Below, in pieces: positions 1 through 20,813 of a DNA stretch of 64,000 bases. A model generated the notes under the pieces. That model did no database searches and had not been told where the DNA came from. It saw only the letters and a program-made list of their open reading frames with translations. The translations under genes and the position numbers were made by a program. The stretch covers positions 1,364,001 to 1,428,000 of the forward strand of contig NC_022111.1 in assembly GCF_000163055.2 (NCBI RefSeq), written 5' to 3'. The first letter of the stretch is position 1, and the number at the start of each line of letters is the position of its first letter. Source of the DNA: Prevotella sp. oral taxon 299 str. F0039 (GTDB lineage: Bacteria > Bacteroidota > Bacteroidia > Bacteroidales > Bacteroidaceae).

Positions 1-1
1 T

Positions 2-829
2 GCAAAACGTGTAGATGTGCTTCGCAATGGTCAAAAGGTTAGCTTAGCAATGCCAGGCAATTTGGACCTATTAGATATGATTAAGTCTACACCTCGCTTT
101 GTAGACGTGTTTATTCCTAATACAGTTGATAGCGTAATGTCAGACTCGCCAGCGGCTAAAGTAGGAATTAAAGCTGGCGATAAGATTGTGAAATTTAACA
201 ACACTCCGATCGCTTCGTATAACGATTTTGTTGAGGCTACAGGCAGAATTGCTGATGTTTTGGCATCAACAAAGAACCCTTCAGACAGCGCAAAGGCTCT
301 AAAAGCAACTATTTCGTTTGTTCATCAAGGCGACACTGCAGTGCAACAAGTGCCCATCACCCTAACAAAAGATGCTAAAGTGGGTATCTTTGCAGGTTCA
401 ATTATGCAAACTTATAAAGTCACCCACATCTCTTATGGCTTCTTAGAGAGCTTCCCTGCAGGTGTAAAACACGGCATGAAGGTGCTTTCTGGCTATGTAG
501 GTGATATGAAATACCTATTCTCTGGCGAAGGAGCAAAGAGCATTGGAGGCTTCGGTTCTATTGCATCTATGTTCCCTGCAGAATGGAATTGGTATATGTT
601 TTGGAGCATGACAGCTTTCTTAAGCATCATTCTTGCATTCATGAACATACTTCCTATTCCTGCATTAGATGGCGGACACGTTCTCTTCTTGCTATATGAA
701 ATGATTACAGGACGCAAACCTGGGGAGAAATTCCTTATCGTTGCAGAGTATATTGGCATAGGACTTCTTCTCTTATTGATGATTGTTGCCAATATGAACG
801 ACATTCTTCGCTGGTTGGGATACATGTAA
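2..829 (+). CDS. rseP: Site-2 intramembrane metalloprotease RseP, 3' part
   Basis: The reading frame is open from the first bases of the window, so the N-terminus, including the HExxH zinc motif expected in this family, lies upstream. What remains is about 275 residues. It holds a PDZ domain (SPAAKVGIKAGDKIVKFNN and following, roughly residues 45-125) and the C-terminal membrane part with the second conserved M50 motif, PIPALDGGHVLF, followed by two hydrophobic segments. The family cleaves transmembrane anti-sigma factors and signal-peptide remnants in the inner membrane. Two hairpins follow the stop codon. Confidence 0.93.
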   Translation, partial: AKRVDVLRNGQKVSLAMPGNLDLLDMIKSTPRFVDVFIPNTVDSVMSDSPAAKVGIKAGDKIVKFNNTPIASYNDFVEATGRIADVLASTKNPSDSAKALKATISFVHQGDTAVQQVPITLTKDAKVGIFAGSIMQTYKVTHISYGFLESFPAGVKHGMKVLSGYVGDMKYLFSGEGAKSIGGFGSIASMFPAEWNWYMFWSMTAFLSIILAFMNILPIPALDGGHVLFLLYEMITGRKPGEKFLIVAEYIGIGLLLLLMIVANMNDILRWLGYM

Positions 830-840
830 ATCAGCTCTTA

Positions 841-882
841 AAACGGCAACTATGCAACTGAAAATTTAGTGGATTGCCGTTT
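841..882 (+). terminator. Hairpin just after rseP
   Basis: A nine-base perfect inverted repeat (AAACGGCAA at 841-849, TTGCCGTTT at 874-882) begins 11 bases after the rseP stop. It has a long loop and no strong T run, so it may stabilise the 3' end rather than terminate. A better terminator follows at 918-955. Confidence 0.45.
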
Positions 883-917
883 GAAAACAAAGAAATTGCA
901 ATAGCAATACATAAAAG

Positions 918-955
918 AAACGAGCAAACAACTTTGTGTTGTCTGCTCGTTTTTA
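918..955 (+). terminator. Intrinsic terminator of rseP
   Basis: AACGAGCA and TGCTCGTT form the base of a long stem that continues through AACAAC/GTTGT. It is followed by TTTTT. It lies about 90 bases after the rseP stop and before the convergent lipoprotein gene. Confidence 0.75.
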
Positions 956-1040
956 TGTTACATCAACCTAAGTAATCTTCTTACGGGTTGTATCTCTTTA
1001 TCTTTTTACGTTTCAACTCTTTCTTGTTGACATCAAGGAG

Positions 1041-1508
1041 CTATTGGAACGAGAAGTTGAAAGAACTACTTGTTGTGGTTTTGCCTTTGTATTCTCCTGA
1101 AAGAGTGGTGCCACCATTATTATATATCAGATTGTATTCGATCTTAATATTATTTTTGTTGGTGAGTTGAACGTAGAGTTTACTTCCTTTTGCAAACACA
1201 TCTCCTGTTCCGTGGTCTGCAATTTTGTTGCTATGTTCCACTTTCCAGTCGCCAGCAACAGTGAGATCAATTTCAGTTCCGTTACTTGTTTTAGGAATTT
1301 CGAAATAATAATAGTCTCTATCAGCTCTGTTTTTGCCCAACTGAATGGTGAAATGATTACCCTTAGAGCCTACTATTACTGCTTGATCATCTTTTGAAAA
1401 GCCCTTCAAATCGTCGTTACTTCCGCAAGAACTAAGCGTTAAAGCAAATGCAAAAAGAGCGCAAAACGAGAGTAAGAGGTATTTTGTTGATTGGTATATT
1501 TTATTCAT
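1041..1508 (-). CDS. Small lipoprotein of unknown function
   Basis: The 155-residue product begins with a lipoprotein signal peptide: a basic N-terminus, a hydrophobic core and the lipobox LSSC at about residue 28. The mature part is short, polar and rich in beta-type sequence, with no motif I recognise. It is probably anchored to the envelope. It is convergent with rseP and stands alone, with 289 bases separating it from ispD on the other side. I cannot assign a family. Confidence 0.7.
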   Translation of the reverse strand: MNKIYQSTKYLLLSFCALFAFALTLSSCGSNDDLKGFSKDDQAVIVGSKGNHFTIQLGKNRADRDYYYFEIPKTSNGTEIDLTVAGDWKVEHSNKIADHGTGDVFAKGSKLYVQLTNKNNIKIEYNLIYNNGGTTLSGEYKGKTTTSSSFNFSFQ

Positions 1509-1727
1509 ATTCTTTTGTTTAAATGATTATTGTGTTATCCTTATTATTCTAAATAAACGCAAGAAAAGCGTTTTTATTGTGTAGTGATGTAACCATTCTG
1601 CAACACTTTTTTAGAGTTGATTTCTTTTCCCCTCTTTTTAGGAACAATAGAAAAATGCATAAAAATAGTGATAAAAGGCATATTCAGCCTTTCTTTTAGT
1701 GCAGATAAAATACAAAAGAATAGAAAA

Positions 1728-1759
1728 TTTGGATAATAAGTAAGTTTTGAATAACTTTG
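1728..1759 (+). promoter_or_regulatory. Promoter of ispD
   Basis: TTTG at 1728-1731, a 20-base spacer, then TAACTTTG at 1752-1759: a full match to the Bacteroidetes housekeeping promoter. The start codon at 1798 lies about 30 bases after the expected transcription start, which supports that start codon over the longer frame opening at 1747. Confidence 0.75.
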
Positions 1760-1797
1760 TTATCGTAATAACGCATCGCAAAAGAAAGGAGACAACA

Positions 1798-2475
1798 ATG
1801 AATTATGCAATTATTGTGGCAGGAGGAAAAGGCATTCGAATGGGTAATGACATACCTAAACAATTTATGTTGTTGTGCAATAAGCCCATATTGATGCACA
1901 CTATTGAGCGTTTTAGGGCTTTTGATGCACAGATAAAGATTGTTGTTGTGTTGCCAAAAGAACAGCAACAATATTGGAACAACTTATGTTCCGACTATCA
2001 TTTCGACGTCGATCACACTGTGGTTGATGGTGGTTCAACTCGTTTTGAGTCGTCTTTAAACGGATTAAAAGCCATAGATGGCGGTGCAAACGACTATGTT
2101 GCCATACACGATGGAGTGCGTCCTTTGGTATCGAAAGACACCATTCAGCGTTGTTTCGATGCCGTATTAGGTTGCAAAGCCGTTATTCCTGTGGTGAAAG
2201 TGGTAGACTCTTTGCGCAAAACCTATAAAGATGGACAAGAAAAGAACGTGGATCGAAGTGCTTATAGCATTGTTCAAACGCCCCAAACATTTAGCGTTGA
2301 GCTGTTGAAAAAAGCCTATGAGCAACCTTACGACCCTCTTTTCACCGACGAAGCATCGGTAGTTGAGCGTTTAGGAGAAAAGGTATTCTCGGTAGAAGGC
2401 AATCGAGAAAACATCAAAATCACCACTCCTTTCGACATCATTGTTGCCTCGGCAGTGTTGAATAACGAACTATAA
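1798..2475 (+). CDS. ispD: 2-C-methyl-D-erythritol 4-phosphate cytidylyltransferase
   Basis: IspD joins CTP and methylerythritol phosphate in the non-mevalonate isoprenoid pathway. The 225-residue protein shows the nucleotide-binding loop AGGKGIRMGNDIPKQF near the N-terminus, then HDGVRPLV, VVDSLRKT and QTPQTF, all characteristic of the family. The frame opens earlier at 1747, but that codon overlaps the promoter. The ATG at 1798 has a purine-rich ribosome site (AAAGGAGA) and starts directly before the nucleotide-binding strand. The product feeds undecaprenyl phosphate synthesis, in which UppS (14.3 kb) also acts. recG follows after 169 bases. Confidence 0.95.
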   Translation: MNYAIIVAGGKGIRMGNDIPKQFMLLCNKPILMHTIERFRAFDAQIKIVVVLPKEQQQYWNNLCSDYHFDVDHTVVDGGSTRFESSLNGLKAIDGGANDYVAIHDGVRPLVSKDTIQRCFDAVLGCKAVIPVVKVVDSLRKTYKDGQEKNVDRSAYSIVQTPQTFSVELLKKAYEQPYDPLFTDEASVVERLGEKVFSVEGNRENIKITTPFDIIVASAVLNNEL

Positions 2476-2526
2476 AAGAATCAATCTCCATCTCTTTTCA
2501 AATCAATAAAATAGATATCGCAAAAT

Positions 2527-2607
2527 AAAAACAATGCTTTTACCAACTAAAAGCATTGATATTGCACCCTAAAAGCATTGCTTTTGAAGTGTAATAGGAT
2601 AGCTTTT
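2527..2607. repeat. 22-bp-period palindrome array, 4 units (ispD-recG)
   Basis: Right arms (TGCTTTT-like) start at 2535, 2557, 2579 and 2601, exactly 22 bases apart. Left arms (AAAAGCA-like) start at 2527, 2549, 2571 and 2593. The unit at 2571-2585 is a complete AAAAGCA-T-TGCTTTT palindrome. The array fills the ispD-recG gap. Confidence 0.85.
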
Positions 2608-2644
2608 GTGAAGCAATTGATAATCAATAAGATAAAGAACAATA

Positions 2645-4750
2645 ATGAGTAATATTCTAGAACAAGACATTATGTATCTTCAGGGCGTTGGACCTAAGCG
2701 CAAAGATATTCTCAGTAGCGAGCTGGGAATAAAGACTTGGGGCGACCTTTTAGAGTATTATCCATATAAATATGTAGACCGAAGTAAGATTTACGCTGTG
2801 CACGAGCTAACGGGCGACATGCCTTTCGTGCAGATAAAAGGGCGCATTTTGAGCTTTGAAGAGTTCGAAATGGGGGCAAGGCGCAAACGACTTGTGGCTC
2901 ATTTCAGAGGCTCAACAGGTGGAGTTGTAGACTTAGTGTGGTTTCAAGGGGCGCAATATATTCGTAAAACCTATAACTTAAACGACGAATATTTAGTGTT
3001 TGGTAAGCCTACTTTCTATAACGGACGCTATCAATTTACCCATCCTGAGATCGAAAAAGTGGGCGAAGTGCAAATCGAAACCATGCGCATGCAACCTTAT
3101 TACATCACAACAGAGAAGATGAAAAAGGCAGGGTTGCAGTCGAGAGCTATTGAGAAAATCACTCGAATGTTGGTCGATAAAATTCCACAAGAAGCCCTAC
3201 CAGAAACCCTTCCCACCTTTATCACCGAACGATTGCATCTTGTTTCACGCTACGAAGCATTCCGAAACATTCACTATCCCACATCTTTAACCGATGTACA
3301 GAATGCTCAATTGCGTCTAAAATTCGAAGAATTGTTCTTCGTTCAGCTCAATATTCTTCGCTATTCAACCGAACATCGTCGCAAATATCGTGGCTATCTT
3401 CTCCCCAAAGTGGGTCACTTCTTTAACACATTCTATACCAATAATTTGCCTTTCCCGCTCACCAACGCACAAAAACGAGTGATGAAAGAAATTAGAAGTG
3501 ATATGATTACGGGTAGACAGATGAATCGTTTGTTGCAAGGCGATGTGGGTTCGGGCAAAACACTCGTTGCTTTGATGACCATGCTCATTGCTATTGACAA
3601 CGATTTTCAGGCTTGTTTAATGGCTCCCACAGAGATTTTGGCAGAGCAACACTTCACAACTATCGTTTCTTTTCTAAAGAGTTTAGACGTGCAAGTGGAG
3701 CTGTTAACGGGCAATGTGAAAGGAAAGAAACGACAAGAGATTCTTACTCGACTCGAAAAAGGCGAAATTCAGATGCTCGTTGGTACGCATGCTGTAATTG
3801 AAGATAGCGTTCAATTTGCACGATTAGGCGTGGCTGTGGTAGACGAACAGCATCGTTTTGGAGTGGCTCAAAGGGCTAAAATGTGGGCAAAAAGTGCACA
3901 ACCGCCTCATGTTTTGGTGATGACAGCAACCCCAATTCCACGCACTTTGGCAATGACTATATACGGAGATCTAGACGTTAGCGTGATAGATGAATTGCCA
4001 CCAGGTAGAAAACCCATCGAAACTATTCATAAATACGACACTCAAACGGTTTCGCTTTATGACGGAATACGCAAACAAGTGGCGCAAGGACGGCAAGTTT
4101 ACATTGTTTTTCCATTGATTAAGGAAAGCGAAAAAACAGACTTACAAAGCTTAGAAACGGGCTTTGAAAATCTGAAAGAGGTGTTCCCAAACTTCAAAAT
4201 GAGTAAGGTGCACGGCAAAATGAAGCCTAAAGAGAAGGAAGAGGAAATGAATCGATTTGTAAAAGGTGAGACTCAGATCCTTGTTGCCACAACAGTTATC
4301 GAAGTAGGGGTGAATGTTCCTAACGCAACAGTTATGGTAATTCTTGAAGCTCAACGCTTTGGTTTGTCGCAATTGCATCAACTTCGTGGGCGAGTAGGGC
4401 GTGGTGGAGACCAATCTTACTGCATTTTGGTGACGAACTACAAATTAAGTGCCGACACAAAGAAACGTATCGACATTATGTGTGCAACCAATGATGGATT
4501 CCAAATCGCTGAAGCTGACCTCAAATTGCGTGGTCCTGGCGATTTAGAAGGAACGCAACAAAGTGGAATGGCATTCGATTTGAAGATTGCTAACATTGCT
4601 CGTGATGGTCAATTGGTGCAAATGGCACGCACAGAAGCACTGCGAGTGGTGGATAACGACGAGCATTTTGACAAGCCAGAGTATGCAATGTTGTGGCAAA
4701 GACTAAAAGAAATGAAGAAAGCAACCATTGATTGGGCGTCGATAAGTTAA
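2645..4750 (+). CDS. recG: ATP-dependent DNA helicase RecG
   Basis: RecG remodels stalled replication forks and branch-migrates Holliday junctions. The 701-residue length is typical. The N-terminal part is the wedge/OB region that grips the junction. The helicase core follows with Walker A GDVGSGKT (about residue 299), the DEQH box (about 400), TATPIPRT, and motif VI RGRVGRGG (about 581). The C-terminal TRG-like region LRGPGDLEGTQQSG is present. It is preceded by a repeat array rather than a clear promoter, so co-transcription with ispD is possible. Confidence 0.97.
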   Translation: MSNILEQDIMYLQGVGPKRKDILSSELGIKTWGDLLEYYPYKYVDRSKIYAVHELTGDMPFVQIKGRILSFEEFEMGARRKRLVAHFRGSTGGVVDLVWFQGAQYIRKTYNLNDEYLVFGKPTFYNGRYQFTHPEIEKVGEVQIETMRMQPYYITTEKMKKAGLQSRAIEKITRMLVDKIPQEALPETLPTFITERLHLVSRYEAFRNIHYPTSLTDVQNAQLRLKFEELFFVQLNILRYSTEHRRKYRGYLLPKVGHFFNTFYTNNLPFPLTNAQKRVMKEIRSDMITGRQMNRLLQGDVGSGKTLVALMTMLIAIDNDFQACLMAPTEILAEQHFTTIVSFLKSLDVQVELLTGNVKGKKRQEILTRLEKGEIQMLVGTHAVIEDSVQFARLGVAVVDEQHRFGVAQRAKMWAKSAQPPHVLVMTATPIPRTLAMTIYGDLDVSVIDELPPGRKPIETIHKYDTQTVSLYDGIRKQVAQGRQVYIVFPLIKESEKTDLQSLETGFENLKEVFPNFKMSKVHGKMKPKEKEEEMNRFVKGETQILVATTVIEVGVNVPNATVMVILEAQRFGLSQLHQLRGRVGRGGDQSYCILVTNYKLSADTKKRIDIMCATNDGFQIAEADLKLRGPGDLEGTQQSGMAFDLKIANIARDGQLVQMARTEALRVVDNDEHFDKPEYAMLWQRLKEMKKATIDWASIS

Positions 4751-4869
4751 TGCTTTTATTGGGAATTTCTTATTGTATATCAATGAATTAAAAGATTAAT
4801 CGAAAACCAATAAAAAGTTAAATAACTAATAAAAGTTCTTGATTAAGAGCAATTTCCATCTTTTTTCTT

Positions 4870-4877
4870 TATCTTTG
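4870..4877 (+). promoter_or_regulatory. -7 box before the M23 peptidase gene
   Basis: TATCTTTG matches the Bacteroidetes -7 element TAnnTTTG. I do not see a good TTG at the usual upstream spacing. The expected leader of about 100 bases ends at the ATG at 4985. Confidence 0.5.
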
Positions 4878-4984
4878 TCCAGTTATTAGTAGACTATTGT
4901 GTCTTTTGTGTTGTTGCAATAGTTTAAGAACATGTCTTGAATTCTTTGTTTTTGAGATATGAAGTTTCACCTAAAAGAATAACT

Positions 4985-5932
4985 ATGACTTTAAAAAGAA
5001 CACTTAAAACCTTAGCTCTTGGAACGTTAATGCTTTTCTCTTCTAATGCCATTCACGCTCAAGATCTACTCGCAAGGCAAGCTCCTGTAGATCGAAAGAT
5101 GAAGGCTGTAGATACACTTGTTATGAGAAGCATTGCAATAAGAGAAAATCTTCAATCACCAGCAGCGCAACTTTACGATGATTGGAACAACAAATTTGCT
5201 CATCGTCAGACTGCACTTCCAGACACTTTCAAAATAAATCTGCGTCATTTCTGTATGCCCACAACCAGTAGAGTCGTTACAAGTAACTTCGGAGCACGTT
5301 GGGGTCGTGCGCATAAAGGATTGGATATAAAAGTTTATATCGGTGATACTATCCGTGCAGCGTTTAGTGGTAAGGTGCGAATGGTGGCTTATGAAGGACG
5401 TGGTTATGGTAAATATATTGTCATTCGCCATTCAAATGGACTTGAAACAATATATGGTCACCTCTCACAACAATTGGTTTCAGAGAATCAAGACGTTAAA
5501 GCTGGAGACGTAATTGGGCTCGGTGGCAACACAGGACGTAGTACTGGATCGCACTTACACTTTGAAACTCGCCTCTGTGGAGTGGCACTTAACCCTGCAC
5601 TTTTATTCGACTTTAAAGCTCAAGACGTAACAGGAGACTACTATGTGTTTAACAAAAGCACTTATGATAGCGAGTCGGAAGAAGCAACTAGGCTAAGAGG
5701 TAAGATTGGAAATGGTGGCTATTCGCCTGCAGATGTGCGTGGGGAAATGGCTCAAGCCAAAACAAATGAGAAAAAAGACAATGGAGATCGCAGCTATCAC
5801 TTTGTGTCTTCAGGAGAAACTTTGTACTCAATTGCTCGCCGACGTGGCGTTACTGTTGACAAACTTTGTGAGCTAAACAACCTCAAAAAGAACGAACATT
5901 TGCGCCCAGGTCGTGTTCTTCGCTACTCATAA
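4985..5932 (+). CDS. Exported M23-family peptidoglycan endopeptidase with LysM
   Basis: The protein has 315 residues. A signal peptide ends in NAIHA before Q, so the mature N-terminus is probably glutamine. The M23 (LytM) domain carries zinc ligands in HKGLD (about residue 110) and in SHLHFE (about 190), plus GHLSQ. A C-terminal LysM domain (about 270-313, starting YHFVSSGETLYSIARR) should bind peptidoglycan. The likely role is cross-link cleavage or amidase activation in the periplasm. The ATG at 4985 was chosen because the signal peptide starts there; the frame opens 16 codons earlier without a clear ribosome site. A terminator follows. Confidence 0.9.
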   Translation: MTLKRTLKTLALGTLMLFSSNAIHAQDLLARQAPVDRKMKAVDTLVMRSIAIRENLQSPAAQLYDDWNNKFAHRQTALPDTFKINLRHFCMPTTSRVVTSNFGARWGRAHKGLDIKVYIGDTIRAAFSGKVRMVAYEGRGYGKYIVIRHSNGLETIYGHLSQQLVSENQDVKAGDVIGLGGNTGRSTGSHLHFETRLCGVALNPALLFDFKAQDVTGDYYVFNKSTYDSESEEATRLRGKIGNGGYSPADVRGEMAQAKTNEKKDNGDRSYHFVSSGETLYSIARRRGVTVDKLCELNNLKKNEHLRPGRVLRYS

Positions 5933-5991
5933 AGGGTGCTCTTTTAGCGAGAAATCAAAGAATTTGATATAAAAATACAAGCAAAAGTCCT

Positions 5992-6023
5992 TTGGAACGA
6001 TGATTCTAAGGGACTTTTTATTT
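5992..6023 (+). terminator. Intrinsic terminator after the M23 peptidase gene
   Basis: AAAAGTCCTT pairs with AAGGGACTTTT across a loop of about 12 bases, and the stem runs into TTTTTATTTT. It lies about 60 bases after the stop codon. Confidence 0.75.
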
Positions 6024-6147
6024 TGCTTTTTCGTTATTATCTACCATTTGTTTCGAGATAATAATCCAGCTTTAGTCTTACTACCATATTTATTTTAAGC
6101 TCTACTTGCCTTCCTTGTAAAGTGCAAACCTCTTCCTTTCGCAATGA

Positions 6148-6250
6148 AACAACACTGCTTTTGTGATTTAAACTCAATGCTTTTAGGTCGTAATACCATT
6201 GCTTTTAGAACATAATAGTGTTGCTTTTGCAAAATAAAAACACAGCTTTC
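6148..6250. repeat. 22-bp-period palindrome array, 5 units (M23 peptidase-GT2)
   Basis: TGCTTTT starts at 6156, 6178, 6200 and 6222, and a decayed AGCTTTC at 6244. The period is exactly 22 across five units. The left arms are weaker here (AACAACA, AAACTCA, AATACCA). The array lies between convergent genes, beyond the M23 terminator. Confidence 0.88.
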
Positions 6251-6337
6251 ACCTTATTATAATATAAGAGACGTGAGCAGAAAGCCACTTTTAAGTAGAT
6301 TAGAAGTAGCAAGAAGAAGAGAGAAAGACCTTGAATT

Positions 6338-7114
6338 TTATCGTTTTAACACGTTTCGAATAGCAAACCAAAGGTGCATAAAGGTAGTAGAAACACATCC
6401 ATAATGATGACACATCACCCTGAAACGCTCCTTTAATGATGCCCTATGGTTAGCAGTAGTTAAGCCACCATCTAGAAAGTTAGCAACAATTGCATGCACA
6501 TTGCGCAGCGCACGATGTTCCTGTTCACTCTTTTTCATGATACGAATACACCAATCTACGTCAGCAGAGAAACGATATTGCAAGTCGTAAGGAGTGGTTT
6601 TTGCAATTGAAGTGAGCGCATAAAAAGCCTGATGACACACCAACATACCCTGTTTAAACGAATTAGAAGTGAGCGTTTGAGGCGTTTGTAGATGGCGTTT
6701 ACGCAAGAACTTGCCCTCCATATCAACAATATCCGTGTCGCCATACAACACACCTGGCAACAACTCTCCCTCTTTCACCGACAAAGCAATCGTTTGAAGC
6801 GTGTCGATATCCTTGAAAGTATCGCCCGCATTCATAAAAACAATGTAGTCGTTGCTCGCTAATTGAATCGCTTTATTCATCGCATCGTATAAACCTTTGT
6901 CCCTTTCCGATACGATTTTAATGCTATATGGCTCCGAACAGCTACTTATTTTCGCCTCATAAGCATGTGCCATCGATAGTGTTTCGTCATGAGAAACCCC
7001 ATCAATAATAAGGTGTTCGATGTTTTTATATGTCTGTTGCGCCACACTATCGAGCGTTCTTTGCAACACATCTTGTGCATTAAAAGTGCAAGTGATGATA
7101 GAAAAGCTAATCAT
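6338..7114 (-). CDS. Family 2 glycosyltransferase
   Basis: The 258-residue protein has the GT-A fold signature of GT2 enzymes. It opens with ISFSIITCTFNAQDVLQRTL and continues with HLIIDGVSHD and the metal-binding-type segment VFMNAGDTF in place of the usual DxD. No membrane segment is obvious. It probably adds a sugar to a surface polysaccharide or glycoprotein glycan. The start overlaps the upstream glycosyltransferase stop by four bases, which implies translational coupling. The acceptor cannot be told from sequence. Confidence 0.88.
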   Translation of the reverse strand: MISFSIITCTFNAQDVLQRTLDSVAQQTYKNIEHLIIDGVSHDETLSMAHAYEAKISSCSEPYSIKIVSERDKGLYDAMNKAIQLASNDYIVFMNAGDTFKDIDTLQTIALSVKEGELLPGVLYGDTDIVDMEGKFLRKRHLQTPQTLTSNSFKQGMLVCHQAFYALTSIAKTTPYDLQYRFSADVDWCIRIMKKSEQEHRALRNVHAIVANFLDGGLTTANHRASLKERFRVMCHHYGCVSTTFMHLWFAIRNVLKR

Positions 7115-8385
7115 AGTTTGTAAATTTTTCGAGCAAGAGCCTCATTATATAAGTTGATATAGCGCATTGCGACACCCTGTTGCGAGTAGTTTTGATTGAC
7201 TTTAGCTACGGCTTGTTGTGCTAACTCGTTTTTGTTGGGATGCGAAAGCACCCAGTTGATGCCCTCTGCAAGACTCTTTGCGCTTTTAGGAAGAGCAATA
7301 TAGCCATTCACTTTGTGGTTGATCATCTCAGGAATACCGCCAATATTAAAGCCAACGCAAGGCACTCCGCATGCCAAAGCCTCCATAATGGTGTTAGGAA
7401 GATTGTCTTCTAACGATGGAATAACGAACAAATCGGCTGCATTATAAGCGTTTACGAGCGATTTATCATCGCTGATATAGCCCAAAGAGAATGTTTCAAC
7501 AGGCAATTGAGATGTAACTTCGTCGGCACTTCCGCCCATTAGCGCAACAGCCAACGTGTTTTTCAACTGCGGATGTAGTGCTGTTAGCTCCTTAATAGCG
7601 TTGATGAGGTGGTGAACACCCTTTCTTTCGTTTGTTACTTTTTGCGAAACGAATAACAAGATGTGCTTATCTTTAGGGAGAGAAAGAGCTTCTCGAGCCT
7701 CATTTTTATTGATAGGATGAAAGATGTGCGTGTCTATTGGATTGGGGATAGATGTAATGCTGTGCCCTTTTAGTAAGCCACTTTGCTTGGCTTGTTGTGC
7801 AAGCCAGTTCGAACAACACACAAAATGAATTCTACCCTTGCTGTAAGTCTTTTGCTTTTGCGCCCAGATGCGAGCCGAAAGGTCGTTCATAGATCCGTGA
7901 TGGGGCAACAATTGGCAGCGCTTACAACTTGTTTTAAATGCAATACACCCACGGGCATAGTGGCAAAGAGCCGTTGCTGGCCACAAATCGTGCATTGTCC
8001 ACACCACAGGTTTGCCACTTTCGAGAATCTTTCTAATGTTTTTAAGCGACAACATACCTTGGTTAATCCATTCAAGATGAATGATGTCGGCTTCTAAAAA
8101 CTCCTTAGTGCGGGTGATGTCGCATCCTGTATTGGCAATATCAATATCGAATAAGCCTTTTTTTGATAAGTGGAGATGAAGAAAAATGCAGAACCTTTCC
8201 CATAAAAAGTTCCACTTTTGTTTTAGAGGTTGAGACAAACTCACAACCGAAAGATGATCAGTTTCTTTGTTGCGTACCAACATTTTAGCTTTCACTCCGT
8301 TGTTGTTCAGAGCCGAAAGCAATCTGTTAGAGGCAACAGCTGCACCTCCTGTCTTCTCACTTGTATTGATAATAAGAATGCGCAT
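7111..8385 (-). CDS. Family 4 glycosyltransferase
   Basis: The 424-residue protein shows the GT-B architecture of GT4. The N-terminal Rossmann domain starts with a glycine-rich acceptor-side loop (SEKTGGAAVASNRL), and the C-terminal donor domain carries PSLEDNLPNTIMEALACG, the nucleotide-sugar binding E-x7-E signature. A cysteine cluster lies near residues 140-160 (CHYARGCIAFKTSCKRC), which is unusual for GT4 and may be structural. The promoter sits so close to the ATG that the message is predicted to be almost leaderless. It heads a two-gene unit with the GT2 gene. Confidence 0.9.
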   Translation of the reverse strand: MRILIINTSEKTGGAAVASNRLLSALNNNGVKAKMLVRNKETDHLSVVSLSQPLKQKWNFLWERFCIFLHLHLSKKGLFDIDIANTGCDITRTKEFLEADIIHLEWINQGMLSLKNIRKILESGKPVVWTMHDLWPATALCHYARGCIAFKTSCKRCQLLPHHGSMNDLSARIWAQKQKTYSKGRIHFVCCSNWLAQQAKQSGLLKGHSITSIPNPIDTHIFHPINKNEAREALSLPKDKHILLFVSQKVTNERKGVHHLINAIKELTALHPQLKNTLAVALMGGSADEVTSQLPVETFSLGYISDDKSLVNAYNAADLFVIPSLEDNLPNTIMEALACGVPCVGFNIGGIPEMINHKVNGYIALPKSAKSLAEGINWVLSHPNKNELAQQAVAKVNQNYSQQGVAMRYINLYNEALARKIYKL

Positions 8386-8392
8386 GATATTG

Positions 8393-8422
8393 CAAAGTTA
8401 CGATTTGCAACGCAAATTCAAA
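8393..8422 (-). promoter_or_regulatory. Promoter of the glycosyltransferase pair, abutting the start codon
   Basis: Read on the minus strand: TTTG (8422-8419), an 18-base spacer, then TAACTTTG (8400-8393). The ATG begins at 8385, eight bases past the last G of the -7 box, so transcription should start at or next to the start codon. Confidence 0.65.
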
Positions 8423-8688
8423 GCTTTTCAATGCTTAATTATTTGTATTTTCAAAGAATAAACAATGAAAGAAAGCAACTTTTGTGTTCTTTACATCCTG
8501 CTTTTAGCTTCTTGTTAGTCTACTTCTATGTGAGAAATATACTATTTTGGGGGAGGGAAAGTGGACTAATGAGGGTAGAATGGAGATGATTTTATTATGA
8601 GTTTTTATTGACTTGTATTTTCAGAAGTTCTTCCTTTTTAAAGGAATGGGAGAGTAGTTAGAAACATATAGAAAAGTGATTGTTTTGT

Positions 8689-8791
8689 AATAGCGGTGCT
8701 TTTGTTATATAATGTCAATGTTTTTGCAGTGTAAAAGGAATGCTTTTACAAGTCAATAGCAATGCTTTTGCAAAACGCTCTGCCTGCTTTT
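8689..8791. repeat. 22-bp-period palindrome array, 5 units (upstream of GT4)
   Basis: Right arms start at 8697, 8719 (TGTTTTT), 8741, 8763 and 8785, all exactly 22 apart. Left arms are clear at 8733 (AAAAGGA) and 8755 (AATAGCA). The array lies between the GT4 promoter and a candidate small RNA. Confidence 0.88.
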
Positions 8792-8861
8792 GTGTCCTGA
8801 AAAATAAGTGCTTGGGTTCTAGTTGTTTGGGGTTAGTGTTCTACTTAGCCTATATATAAGT

Positions 8862-9046
8862 GAAAACGCCATTACTCTACACGAGCGATGGCGTTTTTTT
8901 TTATGTTTAACATTTAATTTTTTTACTTGATAAATGGGAGTCTCTCGACCTCCATTTCTCCCGTTAAACAATCTAATTTTACCTTAACTAATAACTAAAA
9001 ACATAAATTTATTACTACTAACCTAAACAATCTATTAACCTTTTGA
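8862..9046 (-). ncRNA. Candidate small RNA, copy 1 of a two-member family
   Basis: A complete promoter lies upstream on the minus strand (TTG at 9082-9080, 20-base spacer, TAACTTTG at 9059-9052). The transcript would start near 9046 and end in a hairpin with stem AACGCCAT/ATGGCGTT (8895-8865). Its first ~65 bases are almost identical to 55874-55940 on the plus strand. Both copies have TGTTTAAC pairing with GTTAAACA around a variable middle, then a terminator hairpin with different sequence. No conserved reading frame is visible. It may be a known Bacteroidales RNA class such as 6S or Bacteroidales-1; I cannot decide from sequence alone. Confidence 0.7.
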
Positions 9047-9349
9047 TGATGCAAAGTTATGATATTGCTATTTAGTTTGCAAGAAAGTTGGTGAAAAATG
9101 TCTCAAAAAGGCGTTTTATTTGATAAAAATCAAGATGTTGTTTGCGCACACAAAACTATCTTATGGTTAATAGTACCCTGTTTTTATAGTTTATAAATCA
9201 TTGATAATAAGTTGTTTGTATGCTATTTTGTATATCGAAAGGTGTGTGGAATACTTTTGGTTGCAATGTGTATGATTTTTATTGACGTAATAGCGATTCA
9301 GAACAATAGTAAAAAACAATTATAAGAGGTGATAAATGTTGTGTAATTG

Positions 9350-9381
9350 TTTGATTTTTATCAAGTAATTTACTAACTTTG
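9350..9381 (+). promoter_or_regulatory. Promoter of the GH92 gene
   Basis: TTTG at 9350-9353, a 20-base spacer, TAACTTTG at 9374-9381. The leader to the ATG at 9488 is about 100 bases and contains two overlapping hairpins (next entry). The preceding 300 bases, from the small RNA promoter to here, hold nothing I recognise. Confidence 0.75.
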
Positions 9382-9397
9382 TAAGCCGTTAGCCTTG

Positions 9398-9449
9398 TTC
9401 TTCTCTGAACTAGAGAAGGCGTATACAACATGATATATGCCTATTTTTG
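9398..9449 (+). promoter_or_regulatory. Terminator-like hairpin and competing hairpin in the GH92 leader
   Basis: AGGCGTATA (9417-9425) pairs fully with TATATGCCT (9434-9442) and is followed by ATTTTTG, like an intrinsic terminator inside the leader. Just upstream, CTTCTC and GAGAAG form another stem whose 3' arm overlaps the first stem by two bases, so the two may compete. This is a possible attenuator; function is inferred. Confidence 0.4.
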
Positions 9450-9487
9450 AAGAATAATAATTATAAAATAAAAGATACAATAAAACT

Positions 9488-11635
9488 ATGTTGAAAACGA
9501 TTTTTGGCTCGTGTGCTTTTGCTTTTGCCCTTTTTGCAGTGGCAGGACATAGCAATGAAGCACAAGCAAGTAACAAAAAAGACTGTTATACACAGTGGGT
9601 TAACCCTTATATCGGTACTGGTGGACACGGACATGTATTCTTAGGAGCTAACGTTCCCTTTGGTTTTGTGCAGCTAGGACCCACTCAAATAACACGAGGA
9701 TGGGACTGGTGTTCGGGTTATCACTACACAGATTCTGTGTTAAGAGGTTTCTCTCATACCCATTTAAGTGGTACAGGAGTTGGTGATTTGGGTGATGTTT
9801 CGTTATTGCCAACCTACGATAGCGAAGCTTATACCGTGAAATTTTCTCATGATGGAGAGTATGTTCGCCCTGGATATTATACTGTTCGTATTGGAGATAG
9901 TAAGATCTTGGTAGAGTTAACTGCCACCAAACGCGTGGGAATGCATCGTTACACCTTCCCTTTGTCTAATAAAGAAGCTCTTGTTAAGATTAACCTTGCT
10001 CAAGGAATAGGCTGGGATAAGATGACAGAATGTAAGTTTACTCAAGAAAACAGTAAAGTGCTTACAGGTTATAGACATTCTACTGGCTGGGCAAAAAATC
10101 AAAAGATGTATTTTGTTGCAGAGTTTTCGCAACCTATTAAACTCGTAAAAACAGAGCAAGATAGCGTTGGTGTGTTCTCTGTTGGTTACAATCCACAACC
10201 TTTATTAGTAAAAGTTGGATTGTCTGCAGTGAGCATCGACAATGCAAAAGCAAACTTAAAGGCTGAAGTTCCTGGTTGGAATTTCGACGAAGTTGTTGCA
10301 AATGCAGATAAAAGTTGGAATGATGAACTTGCAAAGATAGATGTAACCACTTCTAATGCTGATGATAAAACAGTGTTCTATACTTCACTTTATCATTCAA
10401 TGTTTTCGCCATCGGTATTTAATGATGTAAATGGTGAGTATCGAGGATCTGATGGAAAGGTTTATAAAGACGACTTTACTAACTACACTATCTTATCTCT
10501 TTGGGATACATATCGTACTTGGCATCCACTTGCAACAATTATTCATCCAGAGAAACAAAAAGATTTTGCTAAAACATTTATCAAGATTTTTGAGCAACAA
10601 GGTAAACTACCAGTGTGGCATCTCGTTGGAAATGAAACCGATTGTATGATTGGTAATCCAGCAATTCCAGTATTGGCAGATATTGTTTTGAAAGGTTTCG
10701 ATGTTGATAAGAAAGCCGCTTATAATGCAATGAAATCTTCTGCAATGCTTAATGAGCGTTCTCTTGATAATCTAAAGAAATATGGTTATATACCCTGGAC
10801 TAGTGATTCTACTAATGAAACCGTATCAAAAGGACTTGAATATGCTATTGCAGATGCTTCACTTGCTAAGGTTGCAAAGGCTTTAGGCTATAAAGACGAC
10901 TTCAAATATTTCGATAAACGAGGTAAATCTTATATTCATTATTTTGATAAGAAAACCAACTTTATGCGTGCAGTGGCTGATGGTAAGTTTAGAGAACCAT
11001 TTAATCCATTCTCATCAAGTCACAGAATAGATGATTATACTGAAGGAAATGCATGGCAATATACATGGCTTGTGCCTCAAGATGTGCCTGGATTGATTAA
11101 ACTTTTTGGCTCGAAAGAACGCTTTACCAATAAACTCGATTCGCTATTTGTAGTAGAAGGTGATTTAGGTAAAGATGCTTCACCCGATATTTCAGGCTTA
11201 ATTGGTCAATATGCGCACGGAAACGAACCAAGTCATCACATTCTTTACATGTATAACTATGTGGGTCAGAACTACAAAGCTGCAAAAGGTGTTCGTGAAG
11301 TGATGCGCACTCAATACACAAATACATTCGATGGATTGAGCGGAAACGAAGATGTTGGCCAGATGTCTGCATGGTATATTCTTTCAGCAATGGGTATGTA
11401 TCAGGTTGATCCTGCTGATGGTCGCTACTGGTTCGGCTCTCCTTTGTTCAATAAAGTAGACGTAAACGTGGGCAATGGCAAAACATTCACCATCGTAGCG
11501 CATAACAATAGCGATAAAAATATTTATATCAAAGGTATAAAACTCAACGGAAAGACCTACAAAAACTGGTATATCGACTACAAAGATATTATGAATGGAG
11601 GTACACTTGAGTTCTTTATGAGCGATAAAAAATAA
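9488..11635 (+). CDS. GH92 alpha-mannosidase
   Basis: GH92 enzymes are calcium-dependent inverting exo-alpha-mannosidases that trim mannose from N-glycans. The 715-residue protein has an N-terminal signal peptide (residues 1 to about 27) and the family blocks in order: YIGTGGHGHVFLGANVPFGF, WDTYRTWHPL (about 339), EGNAWQYTWLVPQD, GNEPSHH (about 578, with the catalytic acid position) and GNEDVGQMSAW (about 619). There is no lipobox, so it is probably periplasmic. It has its own promoter and a structured leader, and it lies far from the GH18 locus with which it probably cooperates. Linkage specificity is not certain. Confidence 0.95.
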   Translation: MLKTIFGSCAFAFALFAVAGHSNEAQASNKKDCYTQWVNPYIGTGGHGHVFLGANVPFGFVQLGPTQITRGWDWCSGYHYTDSVLRGFSHTHLSGTGVGDLGDVSLLPTYDSEAYTVKFSHDGEYVRPGYYTVRIGDSKILVELTATKRVGMHRYTFPLSNKEALVKINLAQGIGWDKMTECKFTQENSKVLTGYRHSTGWAKNQKMYFVAEFSQPIKLVKTEQDSVGVFSVGYNPQPLLVKVGLSAVSIDNAKANLKAEVPGWNFDEVVANADKSWNDELAKIDVTTSNADDKTVFYTSLYHSMFSPSVFNDVNGEYRGSDGKVYKDDFTNYTILSLWDTYRTWHPLATIIHPEKQKDFAKTFIKIFEQQGKLPVWHLVGNETDCMIGNPAIPVLADIVLKGFDVDKKAAYNAMKSSAMLNERSLDNLKKYGYIPWTSDSTNETVSKGLEYAIADASLAKVAKALGYKDDFKYFDKRGKSYIHYFDKKTNFMRAVADGKFREPFNPFSSSHRIDDYTEGNAWQYTWLVPQDVPGLIKLFGSKERFTNKLDSLFVVEGDLGKDASPDISGLIGQYAHGNEPSHHILYMYNYVGQNYKAAKGVREVMRTQYTNTFDGLSGNEDVGQMSAWYILSAMGMYQVDPADGRYWFGSPLFNKVDVNVGNGKTFTIVAHNNSDKNIYIKGIKLNGKTYKNWYIDYKDIMNGGTLEFFMSDKK

Positions 11636-11771
11636 GTATTTAAAGTGCCATTGTGCCGTGTTTTATGTGAGCTGAAAGGTGAATCTAAACGCAAAAATAC
11701 TCACGTCGAAACGGGAGTGCAATGGTGAAATAAAAAAGATAACATTTTGTTGTCGTAAGAAAGTTTTTTAG

Positions 11772-11804
11772 TTAGGTGGCAAAAGCAATGCTTTTGCCAC
11801 CTAA
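11772..11804. repeat. Perfect 33-base palindrome containing an array unit
   Basis: Sixteen bases on each side of a single central A are perfectly complementary (TTAGGTGGCAAAAGCA and its inverse). The inner 15 bases are one standard array palindrome. It lies 136 bases after the GH92 stop and could act as a terminator in either direction, although no T run follows. Confidence 0.75.
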
Positions 11805-11861
11805 TTTGTATGCTTTTGTGTCTCATTATCAATGCTTTTACAAACTAAAAGCACTGCTTTT
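11781..11861. repeat. 22-bp-period palindrome array, 4 units (GH92-DUF6242)
   Basis: TGCTTTT starts at 11789, 11811, 11833 and 11855, exactly 22 apart with no mismatch in any right arm. A further related half-site (AAAAGCAATACTTTT, 11885-11899) is out of phase. Confidence 0.88.
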
Positions 11862-12029
11862 GTTTGCTGGTAAATATTCTAATAAAAAGCAATACTTTTA
11901 ACTATAACTATAAACAAAAAGCTCTTTAAAATAGAAAGTTATTAATATTTTGCATATAATAATAGTAAATATGCCTATTATTTGCGGATTTCTCATTAAA
12001 TTTGCAATCTGAATATAATAAGAAACGTA

Positions 12030-13430
12030 ATGAAAAGAATAGCATACCCATTTTTTATGTTGCTTTTGGCGGTGGCTTTTATGGCCTCATGTGTTAAAGG
12101 TGAGGGTACAGAATTTGAAGGATACGATGATACTGCGATAGTTGGTTTCAGTATAACACAAGCTACTGTAACAAAATATACTAAGACAAAGGCAGGTGAT
12201 AAGGATAGTGTTTACTTTCAAAAAATCACCCCTACAAAGATACAATTCAGTATAAATCAGTTAGAAAACACGATTTATAATAACGAAGCGTTGCCCTATG
12301 GCACTAATGCAAAGAAGCTTTTAGGTAACTTTACAACCCGTTATGGTGGCATTGTGTATCTAAAAGATCTTAAAACAAATAATCCTGTTTATTATAACTC
12401 AACAGATACGCTCGACTTAAGTTCTGAGCGTGAAGTGCTGGTATATAGCAGTAATGGAACATATAAGCGCAGTTATAAGCTAAAATTGAATGTGCAAGTG
12501 GCTCAGCCAGATAGTTTTCAATGGAAAGATGCACTGACAAGCGATGCTAATTTAGCATCATTGACAGGTATGCGAATGGTGAATTTCAGTGGAAAAATGT
12601 TTGTCTTTGGTGTAAACGGCAATTCTGTGAAAGCCTATTCAACCGCAACAAACGATGGAAAAACATGGGCAGCCATTTCGCCTAACATCACTTTCGATGC
12701 TAACTTTGCACAAAACGTGGTGAAGAAGGATAACGCTCTTTTCTCAATCAATGGCACAACCATCTACAAGAGTAGCGATGCTACCACATGGACTGCGGTT
12801 GGTTCTACCTCGGTTACACGTTTGTTTGCAGCAGATAGCAATAACCTTTATGGTTTAAATGCTTCTAACGAAGTGCTAAGAAGTAGCGATAATGGTGCTA
12901 CATGGACAGCGGAAACACTTGATAGCAATAAGAACAATTTCCCAAGTGTTAACGTCTTTGGATTTGAAAGCAAGATAGAAAGTACCCCAACACTAAGTAG
13001 TTTGGTGGTGGTAGGAAACCTATCGAACAACATAGGCGACGGAACTCAAAAACAAGTGACTTGGAGTAAGGTTGTAGATAGCAGTAATGGCGCATTGAAC
13101 AACGCATGGTCGTTCTATGGATTTCCAAGTAATAGCAATAACAGACTACCGGAATTGGTGAATATGCAGGTTGCTCAATATGGTCAATTGCTATTGGCAA
13201 CAGGTGCAGAAACACTTACAGGCACAAACAACAAGCAAGTGCAAAGACTATATGTAAGTAAAGATTGGGGTGTAACATGGTCAAAAAGCACCGACATTCA
13301 ACTTGTGAACCTTGCTGCAAACTCAACTTCTCAGGTGGCAATGGCAGTGGATGCCGATAACTATTTGTGGCTTGTTTATGGCACCACAGGTAAAGTTTAC
13401 AAAGGTATTCAAGGCAGATTCGTGAAATAA
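12030..13430 (+). CDS. DUF6242-type lipoprotein
   Basis: The 466-residue protein has a lipoprotein signal peptide (lipobox MASC, cysteine about 21). An N-terminal beta-rich domain follows, then from about residue 165 a series of repeats of the type SSDGxTWTAV (KSSDATTWTAVG, RSSDNGATWTAE, VSKDWGVTWSKS), which are Asp-box-like turns expected in a beta-propeller. I recognise the overall layout as the Bacteroidetes DUF6242 family; its function is unknown. It ends 35 bases before the porG-like gene and may share its transcript. Confidence 0.8.
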   Translation: MKRIAYPFFMLLLAVAFMASCVKGEGTEFEGYDDTAIVGFSITQATVTKYTKTKAGDKDSVYFQKITPTKIQFSINQLENTIYNNEALPYGTNAKKLLGNFTTRYGGIVYLKDLKTNNPVYYNSTDTLDLSSEREVLVYSSNGTYKRSYKLKLNVQVAQPDSFQWKDALTSDANLASLTGMRMVNFSGKMFVFGVNGNSVKAYSTATNDGKTWAAISPNITFDANFAQNVVKKDNALFSINGTTIYKSSDATTWTAVGSTSVTRLFAADSNNLYGLNASNEVLRSSDNGATWTAETLDSNKNNFPSVNVFGFESKIESTPTLSSLVVVGNLSNNIGDGTQKQVTWSKVVDSSNGALNNAWSFYGFPSNSNNRLPELVNMQVAQYGQLLLATGAETLTGTNNKQVQRLYVSKDWGVTWSKSTDIQLVNLAANSTSQVAMAVDADNYLWLVYGTTGKVYKGIQGRFVK

Positions 13431-13465
13431 AAGTTATTTAAAAGATAAAAGGAATAGGTCGTTTT

Positions 13466-14167
13466 ATGACTATAAAGATATTCATCGAAAAACGCTTGCT
13501 TTGCTTGTTGTTTGCTTTTTGTGCTTTGACAGCTTATGCACAGAGTGATGATGAATATAAAATGGAGATAGGTGCAGGTGTGGGCTTGATGAGTTATCAA
13601 GGCGATTTTAATGGAAGCATCCTGAAAAATCAACAACCAGTAGCATCGATCGTTCTGAAAAGGGTGTTCAATCCCTATATGGCATTGGGTTTTCGGTCTA
13701 CATTTGGAACACTAAAGGGTAGCTCAGAGGGTTTAGCAACATTCTACACTCCCTATTATAATAATGTGTACACATTCAAAAATAAAGTGTTCGACCTATC
13801 GGCAGTTTACGAATATAACTTCTGGCCGTATGGAACAGGGCAAGATTATCGAGGTGCTCGCAAACTTACACCTTATATATTAGGAGGTATTGGAGCAACT
13901 TATGTGAAATCAGATGTCAAGAATATACTCACAGCAAATATTCCTTTAGGACTTGGCTTGAAGTATAAAATGGGTGAAAGAACCAACTTGTCTGTTCAAT
14001 GGACAATGCACTTTGCCCTAAGTGATGGGTTAGATGGAGTGAAAGACCCTTATGGCATTGCTTCTTCAGGGATGTTTAAAAACACCGATAGCTATTCGGC
14101 ATTGCAAGTAAGTCTCACTTATAGCTTTGCAGCCAAATGCAGAACATGTCATAACGATGATGAATAA
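13466..14167 (+). CDS. PorG-like outer-membrane beta-barrel protein (DUF6089)
   Basis: The 233-residue protein has a signal peptide ending TAYA before Q, then a small predicted beta-barrel (alternating aromatic strands, for example GFRSTFGTLKGSS). It belongs to the DUF6089 family, which includes PorG of the Porphyromonas gingivalis type IX secretion system. The order porG-uppS-bamA-ompH that I recall from P. gingivalis is the same here, which supports the assignment. Two cysteines sit near the C-terminus (CRTCHNDDE). A T9SS role is inferred from family and synteny. Confidence 0.75.
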   Translation: MTIKIFIEKRLLCLLFAFCALTAYAQSDDEYKMEIGAGVGLMSYQGDFNGSILKNQQPVASIVLKRVFNPYMALGFRSTFGTLKGSSEGLATFYTPYYNNVYTFKNKVFDLSAVYEYNFWPYGTGQDYRGARKLTPYILGGIGATYVKSDVKNILTANIPLGLGLKYKMGERTNLSVQWTMHFALSDGLDGVKDPYGIASSGMFKNTDSYSALQVSLTYSFAAKCRTCHNDDE

Positions 14168-14265
14168 AGAATAAAAAGGAGTGAGAGTTGTTAGAGAACA
14201 GATATCGCATGATAGATTCTCTCAAAGCTCTTACATCTCAATAAATAAAAATAAGAATATAAAGA

Positions 14266-15012: not shown

Positions 15013-15114
15013 ACATTACAGATTCAAATTACTTGATAATTATTGCTAAGGAGAAAGCATCTTTCCTGCAATTGAATCAATCAAAAGAACATTAAAAGAG
15101 AAAAATATATTAAG

Positions 15115-17757: not shown

Positions 17758-17807
17758 AAGGTATCATGCTTTAGTTCGTTATCATCTTAAAAGAAAGGAA
17801 ACGTATA

Positions 17808-18314: not shown

Positions 18315-18348
18315 AACGAATTTAATAATAATAAAATAGAAAATTAAA

Positions 18349-18849: not shown

Positions 18850-18864
18850 TAAATACAGCTAATA

Positions 18865-18954: not shown

Positions 18955-18974
18955 TTATAAGTCCTATTTTATTT

Positions 18975-19484: not shown

Positions 19485-19503
19485 AGAAACATCAATAGTG
19501 AGA

Positions 19504-20762: not shown

Positions 20763-20813
20763 ACCATTATTATTATCGCATAACATTCGTAAAGTTATAT
20801 CCTTTCCCAACCA

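Follow-up and report, generated by a model that had tools for sequence, protein, structure and literature searches.

In the 64,000-nucleotide stretch of Prevotella sp. oral taxon 299 str. F0039 analysed here (contig NC_022111.1, positions 1,364,001 to 1,428,000, contig C1 of genome G000 in our set; referred to as the window), short tandem arrays of palindromic units lie between genes. The array under study, at 6148..6250, consists of five units that start at 6148, 6170, 6192, 6214 and 6236. Each unit has the form AANNNCA-N-TGNNNTT and is followed by a 7-bp linker, mostly R-N5-Y, giving a period of 22 bp. The source genome (2.48 Mb in two contigs, 99.99% complete) was compared with Hoylesella (Prevotella) nanceiensis DSM 19126 (G422), to which its aligned DNA is about 90-91.5% identical. 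The orthologous array in that species has four units.

Arrays and lattice in the window

A preliminary description of the window had listed twelve intergenic places with such arrays. A 2-kb map recovers twelve arrays of at least two units, one at each place, and a looser scan adds one weak two-unit array at 22166. None of the arrays is assigned a strand. Those at 11781..11861, 22275..22355, 28703..28783, 32125..32205 and 59315..59395 have four units, as do their H. nanceiensis orthologs. Four units are also found at 2527..2607 and 8689..8769, with weak fifth units at 2505 and 8667, respectively, and four-unit orthologs. For the four-unit array at 47486..47566 the ortholog has four units in one pairing and two in another; for the three-unit array at 61561..61619 it has three in one pairing and four in another. 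The two-unit arrays at 35350..35386 and 57535..57571 fall outside the cross-species pairing, which included only arrays of at least three units.

The whole window (1..64000, no strand) also carries a lattice of AA/TT dinucleotides with a period of 10.97 bp, which runs through coding and intergenic DNA and is coherent over kilobases. Arrays were masked before the lattice and its phase lock were measured. The amplitude of the lattice is 0.059 (noise 0.005) at lags 125-455 and 0.020 (noise 0.002) at lags 1775-3535, and its strength is uneven along a 2-kb profile of the window.

Array architecture

The commonest half-site starts with AAAAG, and AATAG, AATAA, AAAAA, AATAT, AAACT and others recur. 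Spacings of up to 60 bp from one TGCTTTT to another in the window are 22 bp (eleven times), 44 bp (seven times) and 6 bp (once). With up to two mismatches, AAAAGCANTGCTTTT occurs 29 times in the window where 1.15 matches are expected, a number reached in none of 100 shuffles. Genome-wide, TGCTTTT-N5..10-AAAAGCA has 39 matches, 38 of them with a linker of exactly 7, and the reversed control has none. A position weight matrix (PWM) trained on 464 kb of the source genome finds 282 neighbouring sites at 22 bp in this DNA and zero to two at each other spacing from 18 to 26 bp. The strict 22-bp period reported in the preliminary description is borne out, as other spacings are nearly absent.

Run on 864 kb of the source genome (the window and 40 further stretches), the matrix yields 99 arrays, of which 70 have four units, 12 have two, 4 have three, 10 have five, 2 have six and 1 has seven. 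One second-order Markov copy of the same 864 kb yields none. Arrays of two to five units, the range first described, thus exist, but the usual number is exactly four. The edges of the four are sharp: over the 87 arrays of at least three units, the mean unit score is about 15-17 within them and about -9 or lower outside. Four units are likewise found in 55 of 70 arrays from 400 kb of H. nanceiensis, and in 53 of 71 arrays from a contiguous 410 kb of the source genome that overlaps the first sample. A seven-unit array at 2705-2851 of stretch L048 contains three identical 22-bp units and has a four-unit ortholog, an instance of rare in-register expansion.

Placement and conservation

Arrays are nearly all located outside open reading frames (ORFs), which were predicted here with a rough, home-made gene caller. 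Among arrays of at least three units, 1 of 87 in the source genome and 0 of 64 in H. nanceiensis lie inside a predicted ORF, so the original claim that none does so is very nearly right, and coding sequence does not carry them as often as intergenic DNA. Counted per intergenic region of at least 100 bp, the source genome has arrays at 24/61 convergent, 45/212 tandem and 9/61 divergent regions (78 of 87 arrays assigned); the H. nanceiensis figures are 20/28, 35/117 and 8/30 (63 of 64 assigned). Arrays of the source genome are also closer to 3' gene ends (median 156 bp) than to 5' ends (282 bp). The earlier statement that most arrays follow a transcription unit is thus correct in part: convergent regions are preferred over divergent ones, and many arrays occupy tandem regions and some divergent ones. 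No relation was found between array orientation and gene strand; the two-orientation model is unstable and orientation itself is poorly defined.

The arrays are conserved in place. Of the 87 in the source genome, 37 could be mapped to H. nanceiensis, where an array is present at 36 sites and absent at one; most of the 50 unmapped arrays have their matching DNA outside the compared stretches. Unit numbers at the 36 kept sites include 28 pairs scored 4/4 and two scored 4/2. In the contiguous 410 kb, 49 arrays were mapped, 2 were lost and 12 were unmapped. Identity between the two species is 0.97 and 0.99 at the outer AA positions, 0.97 and 0.95 at the outer TT positions and 0.88-0.92 in CA/TG, compared with 0.70 at the central N, 0.58-0.73 in linkers and 0.75 in 60-bp flanks. 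Gap columns number 9 among 2,935 aligned in array cores and 192 among 4,193 in the flanks, the core count excluding one array with 66 gap columns that is three units longer than its ortholog. Because motif positions are kept over linkers and indels in the cores are rare, these comparisons support selection on a two-turn spacing that places the sites on one face of the DNA, as had been proposed at the outset.

Conservation between species is not accompanied by similarity between arrays. The best identity between any two of the 87 is 64/81 on the same strand and 65/81 on opposite strands, and a column-shuffled null gives a mean maximum of 61.6 and a highest value of 65. No recent copying between arrays is seen, and the six best pairs, inspected by eye, share no flanks. 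Nor do the two arms of a unit show compensatory pairing: their association is negative in each of the four units (z -1.2, -2.0, -3.2 and -2.1), and no positive covariation appears within units, across linkers or mirrored over the whole array.

A helical lattice locked to the arrays

Beyond the four units the CA/TG core is lost, and AA and TT continue in the register of the array. This register is strongest within about 10 units of an array and is weakly present to about 400 bp, coding flanks included. Over the 864 kb, AA/TT autocorrelation peaks at 11.0 bp in both coding and intergenic DNA, and GC runs in counter-phase to AA/TT along the lattice. Coherence extends to lags of 1.8-3.5 kb at a period of 10.98 bp in the source genome and to 3.5-7 kb in H. 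nanceiensis. When 20-kb pieces of the source genome are scored, the median z is 14.0 and 39 of 40 pieces have z of at least 4; H. nanceiensis scores 20.8. Lattice strength is lower at distances of over 5 kb from an array. The only piece below 4, L053 (G000:C2:100001-120000), has no array and no lattice. It encodes a type I topoisomerase, DUF4099/DUF3945 proteins, a helicase-methylase and Abi_2, which we take to be a set typical of Bacteroidales conjugative elements.

Lattice scores in most other species come from one to three 20-kb pieces each. In six further array-bearing genomes, one or more pieces have z of 9-23: G327 (23), G146 (14-17.5), G070 (15, and 3.2 in another piece), G215 (14), G316 (13) and G012 (6-11). 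G068, with one two-unit array, is borderline at 4.2. Twelve genomes with no array in the sampled pieces score from -0.4 to 3.0, and three pieces from one 50-kb stretch of Escherichia coli K-12 score 1.2-2.4. Among the pieces sampled, a strong lattice is found only in array-bearing genomes, and arrays exist without a strong lattice. As a separate observation, about 17 kb of G070 (contig C8, about 59.1-76.1 kb, mostly in L104) are absent from G215. The 20-kb G070 stretch that holds most of this DNA lacks both an array and a clear lattice (z 3.2); the G215 stretch orthologous to the adjoining DNA has a z of 13.9.

The local 11-bp phase of the lattice follows the register of the nearby array. In the source genome the phase statistic R is 0.72, 0.63, 0.49, 0.37 and 0.28 at 250, 500, 1000, 1500 and 2000 bp, and in H. 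nanceiensis it falls from 0.81 to 0.33 over 250-2000 bp. Control anchors in both species give 0.01-0.06 (random positions) and 0.01-0.07 (gene coordinates). Solitary half-sites lock more weakly, with R declining from 0.35 to 0.09 in the source genome. The lock reaches into codon choice. Within 1.5 kb of an array, the A+T content of fourfold-degenerate third positions ranges with array phase from 0.645 to 0.838 in the source genome (about 1,600-1,750 sites per bin) and from 0.584 to 0.834 in H. nanceiensis; codon positions 1 and 2 also shift, from 0.54 to 0.63 in the source genome. Twelve arrays pooled from five further species with a lattice give R of 0.88 at 250 bp, in the same phase, 0.74 at 500 bp and 0.49 at 1 kb (p 0.06 for the last). 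Ten arrays from seven species with little or no lattice show no significant lock. Judging by the decay of register and phase lock over about 2 kb, the effect appears to spread outward from the arrays.

Register between arrays and quantized length change

In H. nanceiensis, distances between arrays are preferentially multiples of 21.96 bp, with R of 0.50-0.61 in each bin between 2 and 10 kb, and a weaker register extends to 50 kb (R 0.34-0.37, with non-independent pairs). Array pairs overlap in these statistics, so that not all of them are independent. In one stretch of about 200 kb with 44 arrays, R is 0.627 at 21.963 bp, while 300 null draws reach at most 0.512. The source genome shows register at 2-4 kb (R 0.67, p 0.01). 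In its contiguous 410 kb, the values at 3-6 kb (R 0.49) and at 6-10 kb (R 0.41) are barely above scanned nulls of 0.45 and 0.40; below 3 kb, nine pairs give R of 0.59, which is under the null. Long-range phase among 10 arrays of the window is not significant.

Register is also kept between species. For 39 consecutive pairs of orthologous arrays, the separation has changed by at most 3 bp in 15, by 4-18 bp in none and by more in 24. These changes have R of 0.68 at 21.96 bp (nR2 11.0) and 0.28 at 10.98 bp, with nR2 of at most 2.6 at 18 other periods.

The same quantization is seen in intergenic intervals anchored on genes. Between the source genome and H. nanceiensis, 99 of 129 intervals changed by at most 3 bp, 1 by 4-18 bp, 20 by 19-1500 bp and 9 by more. 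Net changes of at least 1500 bp were excluded from the test (these 9, 1 of 42 intervals in G070/G215 and 1 of 70 in E. coli). Between the source genome and H. nanceiensis, 21 changes fall in the range 4-1500 bp; 17 of them are multiples of 22 to within 2 bp, where 4.8 are expected, and array-free intervals follow the same rule (7 of 8 changes). An independent pair, G070/G215, has 6 of 6 changes near such a multiple (42 intervals, 35 changed by at most 3 bp), which brings both test pairs to 23 of 27. None of the 27 is near an odd multiple of 11. The E. coli control, K-12 against strain MINF_1D, gives 4 of 10 with 2.3 expected (70 intervals, 59 changed by at most 3 bp); at 97.4% identity, this pair is closer than the test pairs (91.5% and 93.4%). 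A version of the test that dispenses with gene calls gives 19/26, 7/8 and 2/13 for the three pairs, respectively. No close Prevotella control pair lacking the lattice was found among 25 genomes around G016, among the 398 genus genomes with one G009 segment or among 7 genomes with a G003 segment.

Some of these changes consist of a single 22n indel, or almost so, such as -66 and -198 (as 196+1+1). In many intervals the net change is within 2 bp of 22n despite many scattered gaps, for example, where 789, 1199 and 500 bp in one species correspond to 1184, 1310 and 521 bp in the other. The scattered-gap cases would favour conservation of net phase over clean slippage of units, with gap placement in such fast-evolving DNA being unsure. 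The four-unit norm, the lock of arrays to a kilobase lattice that runs through genes and the 22-bp steps of intergenic length had all escaped the preliminary description.

Distribution among genomes

The strict two-unit pattern TGCTTTT-N7-AAAAGCA is present in 58 of 398 genomes of the genus, only once or twice in 42 of the 58. It occurs 43 times in G063, 38 times in the source genome, 15 times in G012 and 48 times in H. nanceiensis; the reversed control occurs at most 3 times in any of the 398. Viral contigs have no match to it. Since the PWM was trained on the source genome only, array numbers in other species are probably undercounted.

Units vary among these genomes. In G063, G395 and G327 (L121, L119 and L118) units often have GCTATGC, or its mirror GCATAGC, as their core. 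Some arrays in these species are dyad-symmetric, the first units pointing one way and the last units the opposite way. In the strict-pattern matches of G065 and G212, most linkers have G as their last base (for example CGAGCCG and CGGGTCG), unlike R-N5-Y. Units of similar form also occur in L021, L023, L026 and L035, contigs assigned to a metagenome-assembled genome labelled Kiritimatiellae, where TGCTTTT recurs at spacings such as 22/22/23. There they are part of a copied repeat, with copies 82-93% identical over about 95-150 bp.

Other repeats and RNAs were encountered along the way. At about 8892-9064 of L103, G070 carries another kind of dispersed repeat, about 140 bp long; some tens of partial copies, roughly 73-90% identical, are present in G070 and G215. 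A repeat of about 53 bp in G003 (L107, about 9761-9813) recurs dozens of times in G026, with about 84-98% identity. An Rfam scan of the window gives two matches at the gathering score, neither of them at an array. BTncRNA_FopS, a Bacteroidetes family of paralogous small RNAs, matches at 29024-29090 (+), between an array and the next gene, and the L13-Bacteroidia ribosomal protein leader matches at 62670-62745 (-).

Relation to known elements

Several well-known systems share single aspects of the arrays. Plasmid iterons and the ends of Tn7 and Mu contain repeats of about 22 bp that are bound side by side, and the right end of Tn7 has four 22-bp sites. These sites are not known to be dispersed in large numbers and are tied to a Rep or transposase gene. 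The PATC (periodic A/T clusters), or hyperperiodic regions, of Caenorhabditis elegans are long stretches of helically phased A/T tracts in a eukaryotic nucleosomal context and, to our knowledge, have no four-unit palindromic anchors. The arrays do not have the form of clustered regularly interspaced short palindromic repeats (CRISPR), which have longer repeats and unique spacers of similar length; here a 15-bp motif with 7-bp linkers recurs at scattered intergenic sites. Repetitive extragenic palindromes and bacterial interspersed mosaic elements (REP/BIME) are disfavoured because the stem is not kept by compensatory changes: in each of the four units the arms are less similar than the average shuffle.

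Within the Bacteroidales, BrickBuilt of Porphyromonas gingivalis, a miniature inverted-repeat transposable element (MITE), is likewise an intergenic short-unit repeat, a minisatellite of 23-nt units with 19 copies in ATCC 33277 (PMC4596501). It has another unit sequence, a leader and tail with terminal inverted repeats, and repeat numbers that vary between strains, and the portions of that paper available to us describe neither a fixed count of four nor a lattice. The unit here, AANNNCANTGNNNTT plus 7 with a period of 22, does not fit the published 23-nt consensus, and no recent copies with flanks are found, so an assignment to BrickBuilt or a related MITE was rejected. PINSR, known from 177 and 184 intergenic copies in two strains of Prevotella intermedia/nigrescens, with about three-quarters of sites shared and no terminal inverted repeats, has a 188-bp consensus (PMC4755523); it was compared with the arrays by description only.

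The closest precedent for the lattice is the persistent A-tract periodicity of about 11 bp in bacteria, a subject also of PMC1242344. As far as the accessible portions of PMC3431218 and PMC4132750 go, it is found in coding and intergenic DNA, is written partly through codon choice, is stronger in some species and is generally absent in phages; 'hyperperiodic regions' are mentioned in the first of these. The present lattice resembles it in its period and its reach over most of the source genome sample (39/40 pieces). It differs in being coherent over kilobases, whereas the usual signal is about 100 bp long (PMC4132750), in being locked to discrete arrays, which are absent from the descriptions available, and in quantizing length change at 22 rather than 11 bp. 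No description of 22-bp arrays of this kind, array-locked lattices or 22-bp-quantized indels was found in searches of the open-licence PubMed Central literature. Both the lock over kilobases and the preference for 22-bp steps exceed what was found described there.

Interpretation

The array anatomy, its conservation, the lattice, the lock between lattice and arrays and the 22-bp quantization of intergenic length change are established here. We propose that the arrays anchor the phase of an ordered nucleoid by seeding an assembly that reads the DNA every two helical turns and must keep register, and put the probability of this reading at about 0.5. Four dimer-type sites, AA-N3-CA-N-TG-N3-TT, one per two turns on the same DNA face, would be bound cooperatively by a putative sequence-reading nucleoid protein that nucleates the assembly. 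As it extended along the flanks in 22-bp steps, the assembly would touch the minor groove at A/T tracts spaced about 10.98 bp apart. Assemblies from neighbouring arrays would have to meet in register, so that net indels other than 22n would be selected against, and selection rather than biased mutation would have shaped codon choice around the arrays. Because a 10.98-bp repeat on DNA of 10.5 bp per turn would describe a right-handed superhelix that turns once in about 240 bp, equivalent to sigma of about -0.044, such an order would also store negative supercoils. Nucleation and extension of this type exist, as shown by H-NS, which has specific sites that seed longer assemblies with geometry set by site arrangement (PMC5418058), and HTa, a histone analog of the HU family with dinucleotide preferences (PMC6877293). 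In the portions of these papers available to us, neither is described as having kilobase phase memory or indel quantization.

A number of results weigh against this proposal. Several array-bearing genomes show little or no lattice in a single 20-kb piece (G063, z 4.4; G395, G320, G228, G192, G141 and G065, z 0.5-2.8), which means that arrays do not need the lattice, and G026 is borderline at 4.9 with no array in its piece. G012 has the lattice, yet its nine arrays are without significant lock (R 0.47, p 0.13; 0.21 for single flanks). Register in the source genome is absent at 6-10 kb in the scattered stretches (R 0.10), and of the two H. nanceiensis stretches examined for phase over about 200 kb, the one with 20 arrays gives no significant result. 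Among the seven array pairs whose separation changed by over 1.5 kb, three deviate by 9 bp, and one of the eight gene-free G070/G215 changes (-32) falls near an odd multiple of 11, or 1 of 34 overall. Only net changes are quantized: single gap lengths in the changed intervals are not (n=210, R 0.12), and indels from short alignments between high-scoring segment pairs have no 22-bp preference (n=47). Finally, HU/IHF (PF00216) and Lrp/AsnC (PF01037), the only two families searched, occur in 28 of 28 genomes, array-bearing or not. Their presence does not follow the arrays, so they were rejected as the cognate protein.

Two alternatives would account for the lattice by other means. The sequence itself could be the mechanism and no dedicated protein be needed, with phased A-tracts programming intrinsic curvature so that negatively supercoiled DNA writhes on a set path, arrays acting as the sharpest bends that pin plectoneme ends, and generic HU following. 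AA/TT and GC in counter-phase, with a period above 10.5 bp, is the classic curvature code, and intrinsic curvature has been argued for other bacteria in the accessible portions of PMC4132750 and PMC3431218. Nevertheless, curvature alone needs no conserved CA-N-TG core and no usual count of exactly four, and it predicts no preference for 22 over 11 bp, contrary to the lack of gene-anchored changes near odd multiples of 11 and the stronger R at 21.96 than at 10.98 bp; we consider it rather unlikely. A mutational origin is decidedly unlikely. A wrapped nucleoid could make mutation and breakage phase-dependent, and microhomology between A-tracts phased at 22 bp could then generate 22n indels in the absence of selection on phase. 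The clean 22n indels are as this expects, and the effect in array-free intergenic regions would be covered too. However, net changes of 22n also arise where alignment requires many scattered gaps and single gaps are unquantized (gap placement again being unsure), indels are rare inside arrays, and motif positions are conserved over linkers.

The remaining alternatives concern the arrays themselves. With palindromic sites in tandem at two-turn intervals, the arrays look like cooperative operators, and they could be four-site operators of a large regulon that controls adjacent genes, with the lattice unrelated. This is very improbable given their preference for convergent over divergent regions and for 3' over 5' gene ends, and it leaves the phase lock to 2 kb and the register between arrays unexplained. 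A dispersed mobile repeat of the MITE or REP type, or a minisatellite, would explain the many intergenic copies and the seven-unit array with its three identical units and four-unit ortholog; with the best array pairs within the shuffled null, no flanks shared by eye and both site and, mostly, unit number conserved between species, it is scarcely credible. We attach just as little weight to an element acting in RNA, such as tandem transcription terminators or hairpins. Each unit is palindromic and ends in TTTT, and arrays often follow genes, but the arms do not covary, array orientation (itself poorly defined) is unrelated to gene strand, and a terminator-like hairpin, identified by eye, stands separately before the array at 6148.

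Significance

The usual picture of the bacterial nucleoid is one of loose order. The sequences analysed here, by themselves, point to a DNA arrangement that is regular over kilobases, to fixed sites that set its phase and to evolutionary enforcement of that phase. If the arrays are phase anchors, and at the same even odds, the chromatin of these bacteria would have a phase memory. A two-turn grid of 21.96 bp would be pinned every several kilobases by arrays, and selection would hold its register across genes. Synonymous codons would obey the grid, intergenic lengths would change almost only in 22-bp quanta, and new DNA would lack the grid and acquire it over time. The purpose of the bacterial 11-bp periodicity would then become directly testable, since anchors, period and the changes predicted to be harmful (11 bp) or neutral (22 bp) are all defined. 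Codon choice and intergenic length would also be constrained in a way that, as far as we know, lies outside models of molecular evolution, and the lattice may serve as a sequence mark that separates resident from newly acquired DNA.
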